DNA from: Rhizophagus irregularis
Taxonomy: Eukaryota > Glomeromycota > Glomeromycetes > Glomerales > Glomeraceae
Direction of reading: 5' to 3'
DNA: 64,000 bases
Assembly (NCBI RefSeq): GCF_026210795.1
Contig: NC_089453.1
Coordinates: 2,358,501 to 2,422,500, forward strand
The position numbers and the translations under genes are program-made. Positions 22,101 to 63,756 of this stretch are shown piece after piece; position 1 is the first letter of the stretch, and each line of letters opens with the position of its first letter. The notes beneath the pieces were generated by a model. That model did not search any database, was not told where the DNA came from, and worked only from the letters and a program-made list of their open reading frames with translations.

Positions 22101-22412
22101 ATATAAAATTATATAAACGAATAAAAAAATTTTTTTTTTTTAGATATTACAAAAAAATAAAAAATCCGGTTAAAAATAATGAATATTCTCACACTAATAT
22201 TTTTTAAATCTTATACTATAAACACATATAATGATATTAGTAAGGCAGCCAATCATATTAGCTTTACATGTTACCTTAATTAAACTTGTAAGACCAAATG
22301 ACCTTTGTGTTTGTAACACGATCGGCATAATCATAAATGATATAAATAATGAACTTTTCGCCTCATTTTAATTTTTAAAGTTTGAACTCTTTTTTGTTAT
22401 ATTTGAAAAACA

Positions 22413-23864
22413 ATGTCTAAACTTCCTGCTGATTGCTGGAATGAGATTTTTGAGTACTTGGAAGATAACATACATACTTTGTATTCATGCATATTAGTTA
22501 ATCGCCTTTGGTGTGAAGTTTCAGTAAGAATTTTGTGGAGAAATGATTGGAATTATACTACTTCGATCTTCAGTACTTTAATTGCTTGCCTTCCAAACGA
22601 GTCAAAAGAAATTTTATCTAAAAATGAAATTACTATTTTAACCCCAACTTTAAAACCTCCCACTTTCAATTATGCATCATTTTGCAAAGTTCTATCAGTT
22701 AATCGAATTTATTACAATATTGAAAGGCTTCTTAAAAATCAACAAAATATTTTACTACAAAATCTTAAAAATTATACACTTATAGTTGTGCAGGAGGTAC
22801 TTCAAATGTTCATGAAAGAAATCTCTTCTTTAAGAAGTCTAACTTTTACCTCAGTTCCATATATAACTTTTTCATTATATCCTGGAGCAAAAGATTGCCT
22901 AAAAAATCTCTCAGAATTACGCTGTTGTTCAAATATTTCCACCGAATTATTTTATCAACTATCTCAAACATGTTATAATATACAATCACTTACTATAGAA
23001 TTTAAAAGAATTATTTCAAATGGAATAGCAGATATAATTTCTGTTCAGAGAAGTTTGAAACAATTTGATATGATACTGTATGATGATTATAGTATGGCAA
23101 ATATAATTTTTTCATTAATGTCAAAAGTTCCTAAAACTTTAATTAAATTAGGTATTTATAGCAGCGTTTATTGTACTCCATCATTGTCTTTTATTGCCAA
23201 TTTCTCAAATTTACAAGAACTTGAATTATCGTTTGATCTTGAAGAATTCTTTGTTGATTTTGAAAAATTACAATATGTTATTTTTTCACAATTACAAGTT
23301 TTAAAAATTTGGGATGCATTTCCAAGTGATGGATTACTAATAAAATTCTTAGAAAATAATGGGAAAAATCTAAAAGAAATTTATATAGGTGAAATTGAAG
23401 ATTGTAATGATAATTCATTAAATTTAGCTATTTCTAAGTTTTGTCCAATGCTTACAAAACTTTCCACTGGAATTAAAAACAATGAATTGGAGACATTAAA
23501 AATAATTTTTAATAGTTGCAAATATTTAGAAAGTATCAAAATTTGGTGTGGAGGTAAATTTTTGAGCGAAAAGCAAGCATTAGAAATGACTGTGAAATAT
23601 TCACAAAATATCAATGAACTAATATTATATCATAAATTTACCATACAATTTAATTTACTACCAGAAGAATTAGAGTCCTTTTTCATAAATTGGACAAATC
23701 GTGTACCACAAAAATCACTTTCTTTAGTAATCATTACTTATGATGAAAAAGATAGCTTAGTTAAAAATGATGAAAATATTGAAATAATTAATAAATATAT
23801 TAAATTAGGTGTTATTAAGAAATTTAAAGTTACAGATTTTGAAGAAGAAGAATATAATATTTAG
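22413..23864 (+). CDS. F-box / leucine-rich-repeat-like protein
   Basis: Single exon, 483 residues. The N-terminus MSKLPADCWNEIFEYL followed by LYSCILVNRLWCEVSVRILW is a typical F-box (residues about 3-45), which binds Skp1 in SCF ubiquitin ligases. The rest has spaced leucine-rich strands (LRSLTF, LQELELSF, LKEIYIG, LESIKIW), likely an irregular LRR substrate-binding region. The family is very large in Rhizophagus; the target is unknown. The ATG is the only sensible start and the stop lies after an acidic tail. The gene is intact and sits between an orphan repeat and a MITE. Confidence 0.9.
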   Translation: MSKLPADCWNEIFEYLEDNIHTLYSCILVNRLWCEVSVRILWRNDWNYTTSIFSTLIACLPNESKEILSKNEITILTPTLKPPTFNYASFCKVLSVNRIYYNIERLLKNQQNILLQNLKNYTLIVVQEVLQMFMKEISSLRSLTFTSVPYITFSLYPGAKDCLKNLSELRCCSNISTELFYQLSQTCYNIQSLTIEFKRIISNGIADIISVQRSLKQFDMILYDDYSMANIIFSLMSKVPKTLIKLGIYSSVYCTPSLSFIANFSNLQELELSFDLEEFFVDFEKLQYVIFSQLQVLKIWDAFPSDGLLIKFLENNGKNLKEIYIGEIEDCNDNSLNLAISKFCPMLTKLSTGIKNNELETLKIIFNSCKYLESIKIWCGGKFLSEKQALEMTVKYSQNINELILYHKFTIQFNLLPEELESFFINWTNRVPQKSLSLVIITYDEKDSLVKNDENIEIINKYIKLGVIKKFKVTDFEEEEYNI

Positions 23865-25260: not shown

Positions 25261-28200
25261 TTAAATTTCATTTATATCAAACTCATATTCTTTTGTAATA
25301 TATTCTAAAGAAAAAGAATCAAGTAATTAATAAATTCCTTTACGTACTGATTAAAAAAAACAATTTATTACGTACCTTTATTGTTGATTGATTCTTCAAT
25401 AAGTTTATTATCTAAGATGATAATAATTATTAAATGTTAAAATATTGTAAATGTTGTCCAAATTTATATAAAATAATGTTTACATACTTGGTTTCGTATT
25501 AAATGTTATAATTGAAGGTGAACCAGTTAAAGAACTTAATGATCTGCTTGTATAAATTGCTTTTGGATGAGGTTTTTCATTAAAATCTGGTCCAAGCATT
25601 TTTAATTTTATTAATTCTAATCTTATTTCTTCAGCTTGATTAAAATATTTGGCATCCACTCCCATATTTGACCAAGAATTAAAAATTTCACAAACATCCG
25701 TTGCCAAAGGTCTCTTTTTAGGATCAGGATTCCAACATTTTTTCATTAAATTAGCAAAATCTTCAGGAGTGTCGTAAGTAATATTAGGTCGTTTTCCATC
25801 AATAATTTTGTAAATTAAATCAGCATCATGTTCAACATTAGCAAAAGGTTTGCAGCCAGTTGTTAATTCCCACATAATCATGCCCATACAATAAATATCA
25901 GATGATTTAGAAAATTTGACGCCTTTAAATATTTCTGGTGCAATATAAGGTATTACTCCATATATACTGCTATCATGTGGAATGTCATTTGCGGGCTGTG
26001 ATAATCCTAAATCTCCAATTAGATATTGATCTATTTTACATGAATCATTTTCAATTATTTCAACCAATATATTTCCACTATGAAAATCTCGATGTACGAA
26101 GTCTTTTTCATGAATAGTTTGAAGTCTAAAATAAGAAATTGGTTATTAATAAAATTTTATTTAAATAATTTTAAAATCATTATTAATTAATGTTAAGTTA
26201 TAAATACCCATCTGAAATTCGCCACAAAATGTGCAATTTTTTCCTCCATGTAATCTCCGTAAAATTCTTTTGTAAATAATTATGTAAATCTCCTCCATTT
26301 GCATATTTCATTATAAACATAAATTCTTTTGTTATAGGATCTTTTGTGATACCATGACAATTAATAATATATTCAAATTTACTATCATAACATTGATAAA
26401 ATGATTCTAACTAAAATTTTATAGTTTAAATTAGTATATTAAATATTTTTTAAAAAAAAACAAATTTTGAAAATTAATTACCTCATTAAAAAAGTATTTA
26501 TTTAGTTCTTGAGAATTTAAAACTTTTTTTATAGCAACAATGTCTCCATTAATTAAAGCTTTATAAATAATACCAAATCCTCCTTCTGCTATTTTTTTTA
26601 AAATTTTAATTTGTGAATATGAAACCCATTTTATTTTCGGTTTTGTAGAGTGATAATCAAACTCATTTTGAGAACTTTGATATTTTTGTTTCAAAAATTT
26701 AAAAAATCCTTGAGAATCTTCTAGAATTTCATTTAATTCTTCACTGGTAAAATCAAGTAAATGACTTGTATAGCATGCTTTTGGATGAGAGTTTACAATA
26801 AGATTATTATGTTCAATTGGTGCATTTATAAATTCCATGATATTTCTTTTTAATTCTTCATTAATATCTTCAATTTTCTTATACACAGGACGAAAAATCC
26901 AATTTTCAATGATATTTAAAACTTCTTTAGAAGATGGCCTTTTTAATGGATCTTCATCCCAGCATTTTTTCATTAAATCTATATAACATTGTGGAGTATT
27001 TTCAATAATTTTAGGACGTTCACCTTTACAAATACTTAAAGCAAGTTGAAGATCATGTGCTTTATCATTAAATGGTGGAATTTTAGATGTAAATTCCCAC
27101 ATAATTATAGAAAAACTATATGTATCACAAGCTTGAGTATAAGGTTGACCTCTTAAAATTTCAGGTGCTATAAATGGTAAAACTCCATAGATGTCATTTT
27201 CTTTTAAAAAAGGGTTTGCAAGTTGATATAATCCTAAATAATCACTAATAAAAATTCCATACGTATCTTCTTCATATTTGTTACATAAAATATTACCATT
27301 ATGAAAGTTATAATGAATAAGATCTTTTTCATGAATATCATTAAGACCCTTAATAATTTGATATAAATAAAATAATTTTTGTTCCCAATTTTTTGTTATT
27401 TCTGTTAAACAACTTTTTAAACTATCCTTATTTGTATACTCCATTATTAATACATGATACAAAGTATCTGGATCTTTTGTAAATCCATATATTTTAATAA
27501 TTCCATGTGAATTATTAATAATTTTCCACTATAAAAAAATAATATTTAATTAATTAATATAAATAAATTATAATATTAAAAAAAAAAATAATAATAATAT
27601 TTAATCATACTTCATTTAAAAATTCATTTAAACTTTCATCTGAATTATTAAGATAATCAAAATATTTTAAAATTACTTCAATACTATCATATTTAGCTTT
27701 ATATATAGTACTAAATCCTCCTTTATCAAGATATTCAATATTTTCAAATTTATCATAAGGAACCCATTTTAATTCATTTTTAGAAATAAATTGATCCACA
27801 ATTTCACTTCCACTATTACCAAATCTTTAAATATAAAAATGAAATTATATTAAAAATTAAAATTCAAAATAAAATTTACAATTAAAAATTTAATATTAAA
27901 TAATATTAATTATACTTACTCTAAATAAAATTATAAGATTTTAATATAATAATAATTAATTAATTTAAATTTTAAATAAATAAATAGTATATAATAACTT
28001 ATAACTTACAAACTAAAATAAATTATCAAAATTTTTAAAAAAATTTAATTAATATTATATAATTATAATAAATTAAATATAAAAAATATAGGATTATTAT
28101 AATTAAAAATGAATACTTACAGGCTAAAATATTTTAAATGATTTTTTAAATAATTTAGTTAGTTTATATTATATGTAAATATTATATAAATATTAATAAA

Positions 28201-31200
28201 TATAATAGAATTACTTACAATCTAAAATAGTTGAATAATTTTTTAAATAAAGAATTTAGTTAGTAGTTTAAATTATATATAAATTATATATAAATATAAT
28301 AGAATTACTTACAATCTAAAATATTTGAATAATTTTTTAAATAAAGAATTTAGTATAAATATTATATAAAAATAATAGAATTAAATAAATAACATACTCC
28401 CTATATTATAAATAAATAATTTTTAAATAAAGAATTTAGTTAATTTAAATTATATGTAAATATTATATAAATAAGTAATAATGAAATTAAATACATGACT
28501 TACGAACTATATTATTAAATAATTTTTTAAATAAAGAATTTAATTAGTTTAAATTATATGTAAATATTATATATAAATATAATAGAATTAAATAAATAAC
28601 ATACTCCCTATATTATTAAATAAATAATTTTTTAAATAAAGAATTTAGTTAGTTTGAATTATATGTAAATATTATATAAATATAATAGGATTAAATAAAT
28701 AACATACTCCCTATATTATTGAATAAATAATTTTTTAAATAAAGAACTTAGTTAATGTAAATATTATAAATATAACAGAATTAAATAAATAACTTATAAC
28801 TTACCAACTAAAAGAAATTACAAAATAATTTTTAAATAAAGAATTTAATTAGTTTAAATTATATGTAAATATTATATAAATATAATAAAATTACTTACAA
28901 GCTAAAATATTTGAATTTTTAAATAAAGAATTAGTTAGGTAAATTATATGTAAATATTATATAAATATAATAGAATTACTTACGATCTAAAATATTTTAA
29001 ATAAAGAATTTAGTTAGTTTAAATTATATATAAATATAATAGAATTAAATAAATAACATACTCCCTACATTATTAAATAAATAATTTTTAAATAAAGAAT
29101 TTAATTAGTTTAAATTATATGTAAATATTATATAAATATAATAAAATTACTTACAAGCTAAAATATTTGAATTTTTAAATAAAGAATTAGTTAGGTAAAT
29201 TATATGTAAATATTGTATAAATATAATAGAATTACTTACGATCTAAAATATTTGAATAATTTTTTAAATAAAGAATTTAGTTAGTTTAAATTATATGTAA
29301 ATATTATATAAATATAATAAGATTAAATAAATAACATACTTTCTATATTATTAAATAAATAATTTTTAAATAAAGAAATTAGTTAGTTTAAATTATATGT
29401 AAACATTATATAAATATAATAGGATTAAATAAATAACATACTCCCTATATTATTGAATAAATAATTTTTTAAATAAAGAATTTAGTTAGTTTGAATTATA
29501 TGTAAATATTATATAAATATAATAGAATTACTTACAAGCTAAAATATTTGAATAATTTTTTAAATAAAGAATTTAGTTAGTTTAAATTATATGTGAATAT
29601 TATATAAATATGATAGAATTACTTACAAGCTAAAATATTTGAATTTTTAAATAAAGAATTTAGTTATTTTAAATTATATGTAAATATTATATAAATATGA
29701 TAGAATTACTTACAAACTAAAATATTTGAATTTTTAAATAAAGAATTTAGTTAATTTAAATTATATGTAAATATTATATAAATATAATAGAATTACTTAC
29801 AAGCTAAAATATTTGAATAATTTTTAAAATAAAGAAATTAGTTAGTTTAAATTATATGTAAATATTATATAAATATAATAGAATTAAATAAATAACATAC
29901 TCCCTATATTATTAAATAAATAATGTTTTAAATAAAGAAGTTATTGGTTTAAATTATATGTAAATATTATATATAGATATAATAAAATTAAAATAAATAA
30001 CATACTCCCTATATTATTAAATAAATAATTTTTTAAATAAAGAATTTAGTTAGGTAAATTATATGTAAATATTATATAAATATAATAGAATTACTTACGA
30101 TCTAAAATATTTTAATAATTTTTTAAATAAAGAATTTAGTTGGTTTAAATTATATATAAATATTATATAAATATAACTGATAGTAGAATTAAATTATATA
30201 TAAATATTATATAAATATAATAGAATTAAATAAATAACATACTCCCTATATTATTAAATATTAAATTAGTTTAAATTATATGTAAATATTATATAAATAT
30301 AACAGAATTAAATAAATAATTTATAAATTACCAACTAAAAAAAATTACAAAATAATTTTTTAAATAAAGAATTTAGTTAGTTTAAATTATATGTAAATAT
30401 TATATAAATATAATAGAATTACTTACAATCTAAAATATTTGAATAATTTTTAAATAAAGAATTTAGTTAGTTTAAATATAATAGAATTACTTACAATCTA
30501 AAATATTTGAATAATTTTTAAATAAAGAAATTAGTTAGTTTAAATTATGTATAAATATTATATATATATAATAGAATTAAACAAATAACATACTCCCTAT
30601 ATGGGCGTGCGTCAGTTAAAAAGGGGGAAATCTACGTTTTCATCATTTTGAGAAAAATGAAATTAACTTATTTGCAAGAAAAAACATTTTGCTTTCGTGC
30701 GTCAGTTAAAAGGGGGGAAATTTGGTGGCTAAACTTTTATCCATATCATGTGACTTTACCTTCATCATTTACGTCATGCTATTGCTAAATAAGTCAATGA
30801 TCGTCAAATAATCAAATGATCGTCCCTATAGCATATTTCAGTTATTTGATTTTATTTCGATAATTTATTATGCTTATCGGCATACAATATTAAGTGAAAA
30901 TAGTGTACATTGATGGTTTACACAATATAAGCCAAAAACCTCAAATTTGGTTTTGAGGTAGATTTCCCCCTTTTTAACTGACGCACGCCCATATTATTGG
31001 ATAAATAATTTTAAATAAAGAATTTAGTTAGTAGTTTAAATTATATATAAGCATTATATAAATATAATAGATTAAATAAATAATTTACACCCTGTAGCAT
31101 TATTAATTAATAATAATTATAAAGTAAAGTAATTATAACCAATTAGATAAAATATTATAATTGTATATAAAAATTAAGTATATACAGTAACTTACAATCT

Positions 31201-31710
31201 AATTATTTAAATAAATATTATTAGTTTAAATTATATATAAATACTTTTAAATAAATATAAAATAAATACTTACTTTCTATAATATTAGTACCATAATTAT
31301 TAAACAATTATATTAATAGAAAATTTTGTTATTAAATATTATGCAAAATTCAATGAAAAAAAATAACTATTAACTTACCAACTATAATAATAAAATAAAT
31401 TATTTGGTTATATAAAATAATAGAAATAAGTAATTTAAGTAATTAATTATCATTCTGATTATAAGACAGCCTATTACTTACGAGCTAATATAGTAAAAAT
31501 AATTTTTAAAATAGTTTAAAAAATTTAAATTATATGTTTATAATTTACAAGCTGTTAAATAATTTTCTTACCTTTATTTTTTTCTATTTTTAAAAATAGG
31601 TCCACTATGTTGCAAATTTGGTTTGAAAAAAAATTTAGAGCAATTTCAATTTGTATTAGATATCTATATTCATATTATATGCTTTTACCTTCGTCGTTAC
31701 TTTGAGCCAT
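25261..31710 (-). CDS. Tandem pseudokinase-kinase gene with a proposed micro-exon 5' region
   Basis: Well supported exons (transcript order): 27812(or 27824)..27611, 27528..26482, 26410..26208, 26125..25488, 25411..25376, 25304..25261; phases join throughout. Domain 1: GGFSTIYKA, VILKYF, loop HYNFHNGN (HRD Asp replaced by Asn), DYLGL for DFG, so probably a pseudokinase. Domain 2: EGGFGIIYKA, VAIKK, HRDFHSGN, DLGLS, IAPE, so probably active. Both are TKL-like. An uninterrupted frame (26482-27528) spans the join between the domains, so the fusion is read directly. The first kinase exon has no ATG and needs upstream exons. A candidate start exon is 31710..31689 (MAQSNDE) with 31604..31572 next; including 34 three-base exons and one single-base exon gives 2328 nt, 775 residues, in frame. 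The C-terminal exons are solid; the micro-exon part is inference. Confidence 0.72.
27914..31551 (-). repeat. Array of 34 units, each with AG-NNN-GT micro-exon signature
   Basis: About 90-bp AT-rich tandem units. On the minus strand each has a donor (GTAAGT, GTATGT, or GTAATT/GTAAAT), usually a CTAAC branch-like site, then (T)TTTAG or ATATAG, exactly three bases, and the next donor. Triplets: GGA 9, CTT 6, ATT 5, TTG 3, ATC 3, TTT 2, AAA 2, and one each of CTC, GGT, TTC, CCT. Plus-strand triplet positions (rightmost base) include 31551, 31484, 31381, 31276, 31198, 31091, 30596, 30497, 30429, 30334, 30245, 30101 and so on down to 28123 and 28012. A final unit at 27920 leaves one base. Splice signals are kept while the triplets differ. 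Confidence 0.8.
30602..30991. mobile_element. Mariner-like MITE inside the micro-exon array
   Basis: Perfect inverted ends TGGGCGTGCGTCAGTTAAAA, flanked by TA on both sides (30600-30601 and 30992-30993). Removing it rebuilds a normal array unit. An internal third copy of the end word lies at about 30698. The insertion leaves the ATATAG acceptor intact. TA duplication fits Tc1/mariner-derived MITEs; a 4-bp ATAT reading is also possible. Confidence 0.8.
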
Positions 31711-61846: not shown

Positions 61847-63756
61847 TTAAATCTTATTATATATATAGTTAGTTGTTACTTCATTAGCAGATTTCCATAA
61901 AATGCGACGAAAACCAATTACTAATATAACAAATCCCTTTAACTTATTAGGTTTAGATTTTGTTATTTTGACACGCTCATCAAATACTCCTGAGCTAGAA
62001 TAGTTTATAGCTTTTCCTTTTGAAATTGTTTTCATATATGAATTTAATTGATTCAACCCATTATTTAATGTCTCACCTATAGTTATCAAATTTGTTTTTT
62101 TATCATTCTTTGACCAATACGTATATGATCTTTTTAATACAGATTCTTCATTTTCATTTTCAAGTATTTTATCCAGATTCTCAAGTTCATTTGCACCAAA
62201 ATTATTTTTCTGATTACTATTAATAAGTCCAATTAATGAGATATACTTTAATTCTAAAATAATATTATTATTTCCTTCATTACTTAAAATAAAAATATCT
62301 GAATAACCAAAACGACCTGAGCCTTTTGGCTTTTTACCATTCATTACTAATAAAAGTTCTGGAATACAATACTTTAATGGAATAAGTTTTTCTACAATTG
62401 CTTGAAGTACAGGTTCATTTGCTGATGATAGAGACATTCATGATCTTGAAAGAAGAGAAGTCTTCAGAATTTTAATAAAAGGTATAATATTATCTGCAAT
62501 AAGACTTTCATATGCTGAGGCAATAAGAAGTGCATCATCAACAACATGTCTATATACTAGGTTATTCTTATTTTGTCTTAGAATTTGGTTTTGTTTCTTC
62601 CAGTATTCTAGTGAATAATTATTAAATATTAATAATATATATATAAATACAAAAGAAATATTATAATTTACCATTAGATAAATTTTCTGTATCAGCATTA
62701 TCATCTCTTACTCTTTTCAGTTTGCCTTTTTGTTGAGTAATTTTTTCAGTATACTTGTTAGTTTTATTTGAATTTGATTGAGAAACTTCAGATAATTTTA
62801 TAGCAGATGTTTCATTTGAGTAAAATGTAACAAAAGGTGCTAAATTATTGTTTTGCTTTTTCCAGTATTCTAATAAATAATTATTAAACATAATTTAATG
62901 ATATGTATATAAATACAAAAATAAATATTATAACTTACCATTAGATGAATGTTCTTCTATATCAGTATTATCAGTATTATCATCTTTTACTTGTTTAACT
63001 TGGAAAGTAATTTTTTCAGTATTCTTGTTAGTTTTATTTGAATCTAATTGCAAAACTTCAGATGTTTCATTTTCAGATGTTTCATCTGAATAAGGTGCAA
63101 CAGTAGGTGCTAAAGTAGGTGCTAAATTTTCTTTTTTATGTTCCCTAATAATTTTTTGCCAAAATTTTTGAAAATAATTTGTAAAACGAAATTGTTCTTC
63201 ATTTGCCTATTATGAGAAAGAATTATTAGTAGTGCATCAAAATTTATTTAGTGATACAAGAAGGTACATAGCCAATTCCTCCTCCAGAATTAGCAGACTT
63301 ATATCAACTACAAAATTAGGATGCCTGCATTGCGATCTATGGATTGGTTACCAAAGATGTCAATACAGTAATTCTCCTAAGTCAAGACGCAGTCAACCAG
63401 GAGTTACCCTAATTTTGCAAAATAAAAATAACGCACCTTATTTCTGATTTCAACATAAGTTTCCTGATTGAACAGAGATTTTATCTCCTTTAAAAAGTGA
63501 CGAAACCAAATAGCATCAAGATTATTAACTGTGTCTGTAGATGATATTGTTGTAGAAATGATATCACTGCTAATATCCAAAAATCCACGATATGATGATT
63601 TAATGCCTCGTTCTTTTAGATAAGAAATTAGAACTAGATAGAGGTTAAAGGTTAGTTAGTAACTAAATATTACAAGTTGAAAATAAATATTAGATTGAAG
63701 TACTTTTTATAGGACTTACCATTTTGTCCAGGATAGTCATCTATATTTTCACTCAT
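61847..63756 (-). pseudogene. PD-(D/E)XK nuclease-like gene with one in-frame TGA
   Basis: Exons in transcript order: 63756..63720 (MSENIDDYPGQN), 63633..63437, 63206..62939, 62869..62672, 62607..61847. All phases join, 1461 nt in total, but a TGA lies at 62440-62438, directly followed by ATG. Exons 4 and 5 both begin EYWKKQN, suggesting exon duplication. The C-terminal 196 residues contain GRFGYSDIFIL and IILELKYI, giving the D...ExK core of PD-(D/E)XK nuclease folds, then FVILVIGFRRILW. The middle is Lys/Asp/Thr-rich linker. The family is common in Rhizophagus; the function is not established here and could be mobile-element- or effector-related. The stop may be a nonsense mutation, or the C-terminal part may be made alone from MSLSSANEP. 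Confidence 0.75.

Follow-up and report, generated by a model that had tools for sequence, protein, structure and literature searches.

A stretch of 64,000 nucleotides (nt) from Rhizophagus irregularis (NC_089453.1:2,358,501-2,422,500, hereafter the window, within which all coordinates below are given) carries on its minus strand a tandem array of short introns separated from one another by exactly three bases, lying between two small upstream exons and a series of exons that encode protein kinase domains (Table 1). Judged from the sequence, this array is very probably a run of real, translated single-codon exons, and it is a member of a genome-wide system. Beside the window we examined 30 loci from the same genome (146.75 Mb, 32 contigs) and one-codon-exon arrays were present in every one of them. 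These 31 loci, for which L-numbers serve as labels, comprise the window, 20 loci detected with a pattern for two successive units and 10 loci detected by similarity to the kinase part. The 21-locus set referred to below consists of the 20 loci, taken from among the listed matches to the pair pattern, and a 7-kb slice of the window; several arrays were clipped by the ends of the extracted sequence pieces.

An earlier note on this DNA had counted 34 units in which AG, three bases and GT are kept. All 34 sites were found again: on the minus strand between 31730 and 27780 the motif AG-NNN-GTA[ATG][GA] occurs exactly 34 times and its 2- or 4-base versions 0 times. That 34 of 34 units kept the motif was partly circular, because the motif itself had defined the units, and the first site (CTT at 31551) is probably no exon, because its use would leave an intron of only 20 nt after exon 2 and because the donor is lost at this position in the paralog L003, which reads GCGAAT; the number of units thereby falls to 33, and the frame is the same with or without CTT. 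The note's 11 types of triplet, mostly followed by GTAAGT or GTATGT, were borne out. It had overlooked a micro-exon of one base at 27920, the single 1-base site of the interval (AG-A-GTAAGT at 27922), and which sets the frame for entry into the kinase exon.

The three-base rule extends far beyond the window. With k denoting the number of bases between acceptor AG and donor GT, the pattern [CT]AG-N(k)-GTA[AT]GT matched the 21-locus set 693 times at k=3 and 0 times at k=2, 4 or 5, with further same-strand matches at k=0 (7), k=1 (14) and k=6 (6), and with 1 match at k=3 on the antisense strand. A weight-matrix scan of the same loci over k=0-30 returned 672 sites at 3, 9 at 1 (two of which, in L005 and L015, are second readings within AG-starting triplets), 6 at 6 and 1 at 9, none at k=0, 2, 4, 5, 7 or 8, and isolated values of 1-3 at k=10-30. 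When the sites were chained into 21 arrays we obtained 744 exons of 3 nt, 6 of 6, 1 of 9, 1 of 12 and 13 of 1 nt; because the chain builder admits only lengths of 1, 3, 6, 9 and 12, the evidence on open lengths comes from the plain-pattern, weight-matrix and genome-wide scans only. The spacing between units is spread over the three classes modulo 3 (242/239/197), the intron spacers varying freely. Genome-wide, the two-unit pattern gave 433 matches and its reversed version 0, which excludes a chance origin of the splice-site array. A k=3 site followed by a k=4-5 site was found at 0 places and one followed by a k=6 site at 4 places, and the strict pattern for a k=3 site followed by a k=0-2 site was found at 107 places. 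Where readable, the latter are array tails, composed of the last triplet and a 1-nt exon, and a match to the window kinase exon lies within 700 nt downstream in 84 of the 100 tails listed out of the 107. The 1-nt exon, which is A in all cases but one (T), is present exactly once per locus in 23 of the 31 loci.

The intervening segments have the features of small introns. Across the 31 loci, 932 introns between consecutive units (steps >135 nt being excluded) measure 58-130 nt with a median of 92 nt, and a CTAAC branch-like site lies 12-60 nt before the intron end in 517 of them as compared to 21 in shuffled introns. GTAAGT accounts for 879 of 1055 chained donors, a proportion to be read with the fact that the scan favours such donors. 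Some unit bodies in related arrays have lost their junction, as in three 189-nt steps of L016. Six units of the form TAG/NNN/GCAAGT were also seen within the arrays of L001, L005, L007, L008 and L016.

The flanking exons dictate phase 1 through the array, because exon 1 has a length of 1 modulo 3, exon 2 is a multiple of 3 and entry into the kinase exon requires two pending bases, as supplied by phase 1 plus the 1-nt exon. Homologues of exon 1 measure 13, 16, 19, 22, 25 or 31 nt in 15 loci including the window, all 1 modulo 3 (the L004 homologue being assigned by eye, and dissimilar regular-expression matches in L005 and L018 being set aside); the regular-expression search for exon 1 yielded no homologue in the remaining 4 of the 21 loci. 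Exon 2 measures 24, 27, 33, 45, 96, 99, 117 or 120 nt in 12 loci including the window, always a multiple of 3; its ends were chosen by regular expression, which picked wrong exons in L004, L005 and L018. The 1-nt exon is required in the window, where exon 1, exon 2 and the kinase exon joined without the A are frame-shifted, and a single intron leading from exon 1 or exon 2 straight to the kinase exon was ruled out on frame. Phase 1, from which the earlier note had read the joined triplets, was thus the right choice.

In this phase the arrays are almost devoid of stop codons. When neighbouring triplets of the 21 arrays were joined, phase 0 contained 3 stops in 749 codons and phase 1 a single stop in 677; phase 2, with 113 stops in 677 codons, was rejected as a reading frame. 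Shuffling the order of units within each array 2000 times led to an expectation of 20.5 phase-1 stops (standard deviation 3.5, minimum 10) against the single one observed, and reversing the order of units raised the count from 1 to 25. Among non-stop codon trios of similar expectation, 0 of 4245 were as depleted as the stops. Over all 31 arrays, 27 are free of phase-1 stops at every successive junction as compared to 12.6 in shuffles (maximum 20). We further measured stops between units at increasing distance, leaving out L018, whose GTAAAT donors fit poorly: immediate neighbours (lag 1) gave 1 stop in 662 against 20.9 in shuffles, and lags 3 and 4 were near expectation (19 against 17.1 and 15 against 15.2, respectively). 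Only between immediate neighbours is the depletion strong, which points to an ordered inclusion of neighbouring exons.

The same behaviour was found in an independent set of 10 loci from the kinase-similarity list, chosen among matches without a tail among the tails listed (one of them, L034, has a listed pair match). All 10 contain arrays, of 15-39 chained units each. A scan for any k up to 30 gave 285 sites at 3, 2 at 6, 2 at 12, 3 at 1 and no others, one of the k=1 sites (in L038) being a second reading inside an AG-starting triplet; the L038 chain is cut by a 978-nt step, so that 19 further k=3 sites were left out. Phase-1 stops numbered 0 of 253 as compared to 8.9 in 2000 shuffles (standard deviation 2.3, minimum 2) and 12 in reversed order, with 0 of 288 in phase 0 and 41 of 253 in phase 2. 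The comparison with the 30 loci other than the window speaks for exons, loss of AG-NNN-GT in homologous arrays having been named in advance as a sign against them.

Whole-gene models could be built for the 14 of 31 loci in which exon 1, exon 2, the array and the kinase exon were all found automatically, the other 17 remaining unassembled. These models contain 24-67 micro-exons per gene, and 12 of the 14 are open from the ATG into the kinase; open models include those of L003, L016, L034 and L036. The L004 model opens as well once the homologous exon 1 replaces a wrong ATG, which leaves the window copy as the only closed model. The joined frame, given as open for the window by the earlier note, is open in 13 of 14 genes and closed at its last junction in the window copy. 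The modulo-3 length, the stop depletion in phase 1 and the open frames from ATG to kinase together strongly support the proposal of one codon per unit.

The triplets vary while the splice signals around them stay constant, as had been remarked for the window. In 186 disjoint nearest pairs of units, differences per site amounted to 0.201 in triplets and 0.028 in introns, and 76 of 186 triplets differed as compared to 20 of 372 control windows of three intron bases; in two comparisons the per-site difference of triplets exceeded that of introns by factors of 4.7 and 7.2. In one pair, AAC at L003:3200 and CTT at L004:4490, 72 upstream and 45 downstream bases are identical and all three exon bases differ. 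The triplets look diversified, because they are far more variable than the introns that surround them. Certain positions recur: ATT followed by GGT occurs among the first six units in 25 of the 31 loci, including the window, and the joined segment often begins with A-L-x-[ND]-W and often ends with F-E-[FY]-G across genes, which is not the case for its middle. Abundant residues of the segment are Arg, Asn, Asp, Tyr, Trp and Phe, Cys and Met make up 0.2% each, and the short heads encoded by exon 1, such as MAQSNDE, appear hydrophilic by eye. Units have also been duplicated in blocks, as in L016.

Downstream of the array, the window encodes kinase domains recognized by Pfam PF00069 (E 4e-33, in the ORF at 26431..27528) and PF07714 (E 3.7e-25, in the ORF at 25480..26142), and the first kinase-region exon has 150 scored relatives in the genome out of 3246 candidates. 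Domain 1 is read as a probable pseudokinase, because the Asp of its HRD motif is replaced (HYNFHNGN in the window, L041 and L042). Domain 2 retains HRD in the window and in L041, the gene of L016, where a tandem kinase likewise lies downstream of the array. In L042 (the gene of L033; C19:3736300-3740300) the pseudokinase is followed by a long stretch that looks coiled-coil-like by eye, within an open frame of 924 amino acids and with no second kinase. The kinase exon of L002 is apparently broken by unrelated sequence soon after its start (by eye), and some family members thus look broken.

Several observations weigh against reading the array as translated single-codon exons. The first 20 loci were picked by the k=3 pattern itself, and 66 of the 150 kinase matches have no tail among the tails listed; as to this gap, arrays were present in 10 of 10 such tail-less loci checked. 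Stops remain at an adjacent junction of L014 and across a gap of L012 (one each), and steps >135 nt give stops at 3 of 64 junctions, which as first read is no depletion. Two of these three gap stops (L008, L016) are removed by the triplet of a unit with a GCAAGT donor, and this suggests that such units in L008 and L016 have functional GC donors. Lag 2 is somewhat low in stops (13 of 593 against 19.0 in shuffles, standard deviation 3.3), and shuffling leaves some of the dependence that stems from duplicated unit blocks. Phase 0 is nearly open as well; its openness says little, because TA or TG begins no more than 10 of 1024 triplets, and it was rejected as a misfit with the flanking exons. A genome search for joined, intronless copies of array heads and tails gave nothing convincing (7 one-mismatch matches against 1 for the control, and 1 against 1 in a further search), short patterns of this kind being a weak test. 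Finally, in the phase set by its flanks the window copy meets TAA at its last junction (TTT/A/A).

This last point calls for a separate treatment of the window copy, whose predicted product is MAQSNDEVDLFLKIEKNKALENWWNYFGNRRTFSSWKNPWNPFGRIRNYSF, followed by TAA. We consider it fairly probable that this copy alone is a recent pseudogene, or encodes a peptide of about 51 residues, its frame being closed before the kinase. In 15 of 20 chains ending in a 1-nt exon the preceding triplet is TTG, and in the close relative L016, whose surrounding sequence is nearly identical, TTG likewise stands at this position. The window tail is also the only one with a T-ending triplet among the 100 tails listed of 107 (by eye); in the chains of L002 and L039 the last detected triplet is CTT, reached over long steps (382 and 240 nt) in which a unit may be concealed. 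On the other side, the downstream kinase open reading frames (ORFs) of the window are open, and the stop is avoidable by skipping at least the last four triplets. All considered, the window copy is probably a recently inactivated member of the family or encodes a truncated product.

Three other accounts of the arrays as a whole were weighed. In one, the array would amount to a single long intron containing an AT-rich minisatellite whose splice-like motifs were inherited from an ancestral intron, and the triplets would never enter the mRNA. The units are clearly tandem repeats, and if the array of the window is omitted, exons 1 and 2 form an open frame with the 1-nt exon and the kinase exon. 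Such a minisatellite predicts neither a loss of stops specific to phase, neighbour and direction nor a length rule at junctions amid freely varying intron spacers, and it leaves the change of triplets alongside constant splice signals unexplained; we regard it as very improbable. A satellite bearing splice motifs by chance was ruled out by the length and phase tests. Selective use of the exons is a likelier proposition, albeit still an unlikely one: varied subsets of one-codon exons would give many protein forms per gene, nearly all units are symmetric so that skipping keeps the frame, and the low count of stops at lag 2 is in its favour. Strong depletion confined to immediate neighbours, with lags 3-4 near chance, is what ordered full inclusion predicts instead, and the preponderance of GTAAGT donors speaks in the same direction, though the scan favours them. 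The data do not show the protein diversity by exon inclusion that the earlier note suggested; variation is seen in the DNA, between units and between genes.

It is also conceivable, if rather doubtful, that the micro-exons are spliced and translated but have no job, being the result of a runaway duplication of intron plus codon by constructive neutral evolution. The wide range of array sizes in the 14 models and the block duplication in L016 would fit, and the insertion of one codon is about the mildest coding change possible. Neutral copying is nevertheless expected to leave triplets as similar as introns, contrary to the excess of differences measured in both comparisons and to the pair whose 117 flanking bases are identical and whose exon bases all differ, and it does not account for the order ATT-GGT in array heads. 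On balance, we retain translated single-codon exons, probably under diversifying selection, as the best reading of the array.

Under this reading, the short introns (mostly 58-140 nt) are most likely excised by the spliceosome in succession, through intron definition, and the transcript would run from exons 1 and 2 through the three-base exons, kept in genomic order, to the 1-base exon and the kinase exons. Because a 3-nt exon offers little room for acceptor and donor complexes simultaneously, splicing is likely to be sequential. Exons of three bases are probably close to the lower limit for the spliceosome, and the published ones consulted are isolated. The protein would comprise a short head, a segment built from one codon per exon, a pseudokinase and then either another kinase or a coiled coil. 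By recombination between units that are nearly identical, codons would be added, removed and swapped with the frame intact, which would make the segment hypervariable between paralogs. The rule of lengths in multiples of three, the phase, the depletion of stops between neighbours and the hypervariability of the triplets are read directly from the DNA; splicing, the in-order inclusion of neighbours, diversifying selection and recombination as the source of the variation are what we infer from it; that the segment is a recognition surface is a guess. Tentatively, and with less than even confidence, we envisage on the order of at least 100 receptor-like genes coupled to kinases, each with a recognition segment encoded one codon per exon and shaped by unequal recombination and diversifying selection for self/non-self or partner recognition.

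If the reading is true, dozens of 3-nt exons in a row would show that splicing can proceed without exon definition, via stepwise intron definition. They would also represent a novel principle for constructing and diversifying a protein, in which each cassette carries one codon and recombination between units consequently stays in frame, and might account for some of the expansion of kinases in this arbuscular mycorrhizal fungus. The genes would be candidates for partner or self recognition, a speculative role. Similar systems may be missed elsewhere, because the usual read mappers and gene finders struggle with such exons. The assembly paper for R. irregularis DAOM197198 (PMC10234402) made use of Nanopore RNA, with minimap2 at an intron limit of 3000 nt.

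Table 1. Parts of the array gene and its insert in the window. Single positions given for triplets are those of their first bases.
Feature	Position	Strand	Remarks
Exon 1	31689..31710	-	22 nt from ATG; MAQSNDE + 1 base; donor GTAAAA; ends in phase 1
Exon 2	31572..31604	-	33 nt; VDLFLKIEKNK; phase 1 in and out; donor GTAAGA
CTT, first triplet of the earlier note	31549..31551	-	AACAG/CTT/GTAAAT; probably not an exon
Array of 33 three-base micro-exons	28010..31484	-	Internal introns 65-141 nt and one of 492 nt
Conserved array head CTC, TTG, AAA, ATT, GGT	31089..31484	-	A-L-E-N-W if joined in phase 1
Micro-exons 1-5	CTC 31484, TTG 31381, AAA 31276, ATT 31198, GGT 31091	-
Micro-exons 6-10	GGA 30596, ATT 30497, ATT 30429, TTG 30334, GGA 30245	-
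Micro-exons 11-15	ATC 30101, GGA 30008, GGA 29903, CTT 29803, TTT 29716	-
Micro-exons 16-20	CTT 29629, CTT 29538, GGA 29444, AAA 29342, ATC 29242	-
Micro-exons 21-25	CTT 29157, GGA 29064, ATC 28986, CTT 28901, TTG 28807	-
Micro-exons 26-30	GGA 28710, GGA 28607, TTC 28506, GGA 28400, ATT 28315	-
Micro-exons 31-33	ATT 28221, CCT 28123, TTT 28012	-
Last triplet TTT	28010..28012	-	TTT/A/A = TAA in phase 1
One-base micro-exon A	27920	-	TTTAG/A/GTAAGT; moves the frame from phase 1 to phase 2
First kinase-region exon	27611..27824	-	FGNSGSEIVDQFI...LNE; enters with two pending bases
ORF, most of kinase domain 1 and start of kinase domain 2	26431..27528	-
ORF, C-lobe of kinase domain 2	25480..26142	-	VHRDFHSGN, GDLG
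Insert resembling a miniature inverted-repeat transposable element (MITE)	30599..30994		Perfect 37-nt terminal inverted repeats; inside an array intron

The MITE-like insert makes up most of the 492-nt intron that separates GGT from GGA, and a related internal copy of its repeat lies at 30696-30721. Elsewhere in the window, positions 1-2769 hold about 26 tandem copies of a 108-nt (36-codon) unit, 87% matching and Sel1-repeat-like by eye, positions 22407-23864 an open frame of 485 amino acids with a start that looks F-box-like by eye, and positions 62588-63114 a two-copy direct repeat with a period of 270 nt.

The arrays share single traits with several known systems. Schistosome micro-exon genes have short, variable and largely symmetric exons, mostly longer than one codon, and their products are secreted; the R. 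irregularis exons are likewise short, symmetric and varying, but have 3 nt and are followed by kinase domains. At recursive splice sites, or zero-length exons, AG stands directly before GT within long introns. Acceptor and donor almost abut in the arrays too, with exactly three in-frame bases between them and short introns, and with no k=0 site by weight matrix and 7 by plain pattern. The repeats of fungal NLR proteins involved in allorecognition consist, like the arrays, of near-identical units with a few hypervariable codons and a changing number of units; there the repeat is the protein, whereas here the repeat is intron with one coding codon per unit. Tandem kinase proteins of plant immunity combine a pseudokinase and a kinase in one protein, and resemble the array genes in this respect; we know of no counterpart to the N-terminal array. 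The array genes would have the most finely divided coding sequence known to us.

No account of one-codon-exon arrays was found in the open-access literature searched, which was covered largely by titles and abstract openings. The array, rather than the single micro-exon, would be the new element, because single exons of 3 nt and of 1 nt have already been published. The Drosophila homothorax gene is reported to contain one evolutionarily conserved 3-nt micro-exon (PMC7392893), which also has the length of one codon, but is single and conserved where the R. irregularis exons are variable and stand by the dozen in tandem. Single-nucleotide exons are described in Arabidopsis (PMC4674806) and in Fusarium CYP621A, the latter termed the second case overall and the first for a fungal gene (PMC12940212); AG-N-GT is needed there to restore the frame, as it would be at the last exon of the array, with RNA support in Fusarium CYP621A and, in R. 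irregularis, a predicted occurrence in 23 of 31 loci. The SP7-like effectors of R. irregularis itself are outlined as a signal peptide with imperfect hydrophilic repeats (PMC11333574); the array genes, for their part, encode kinase domains.

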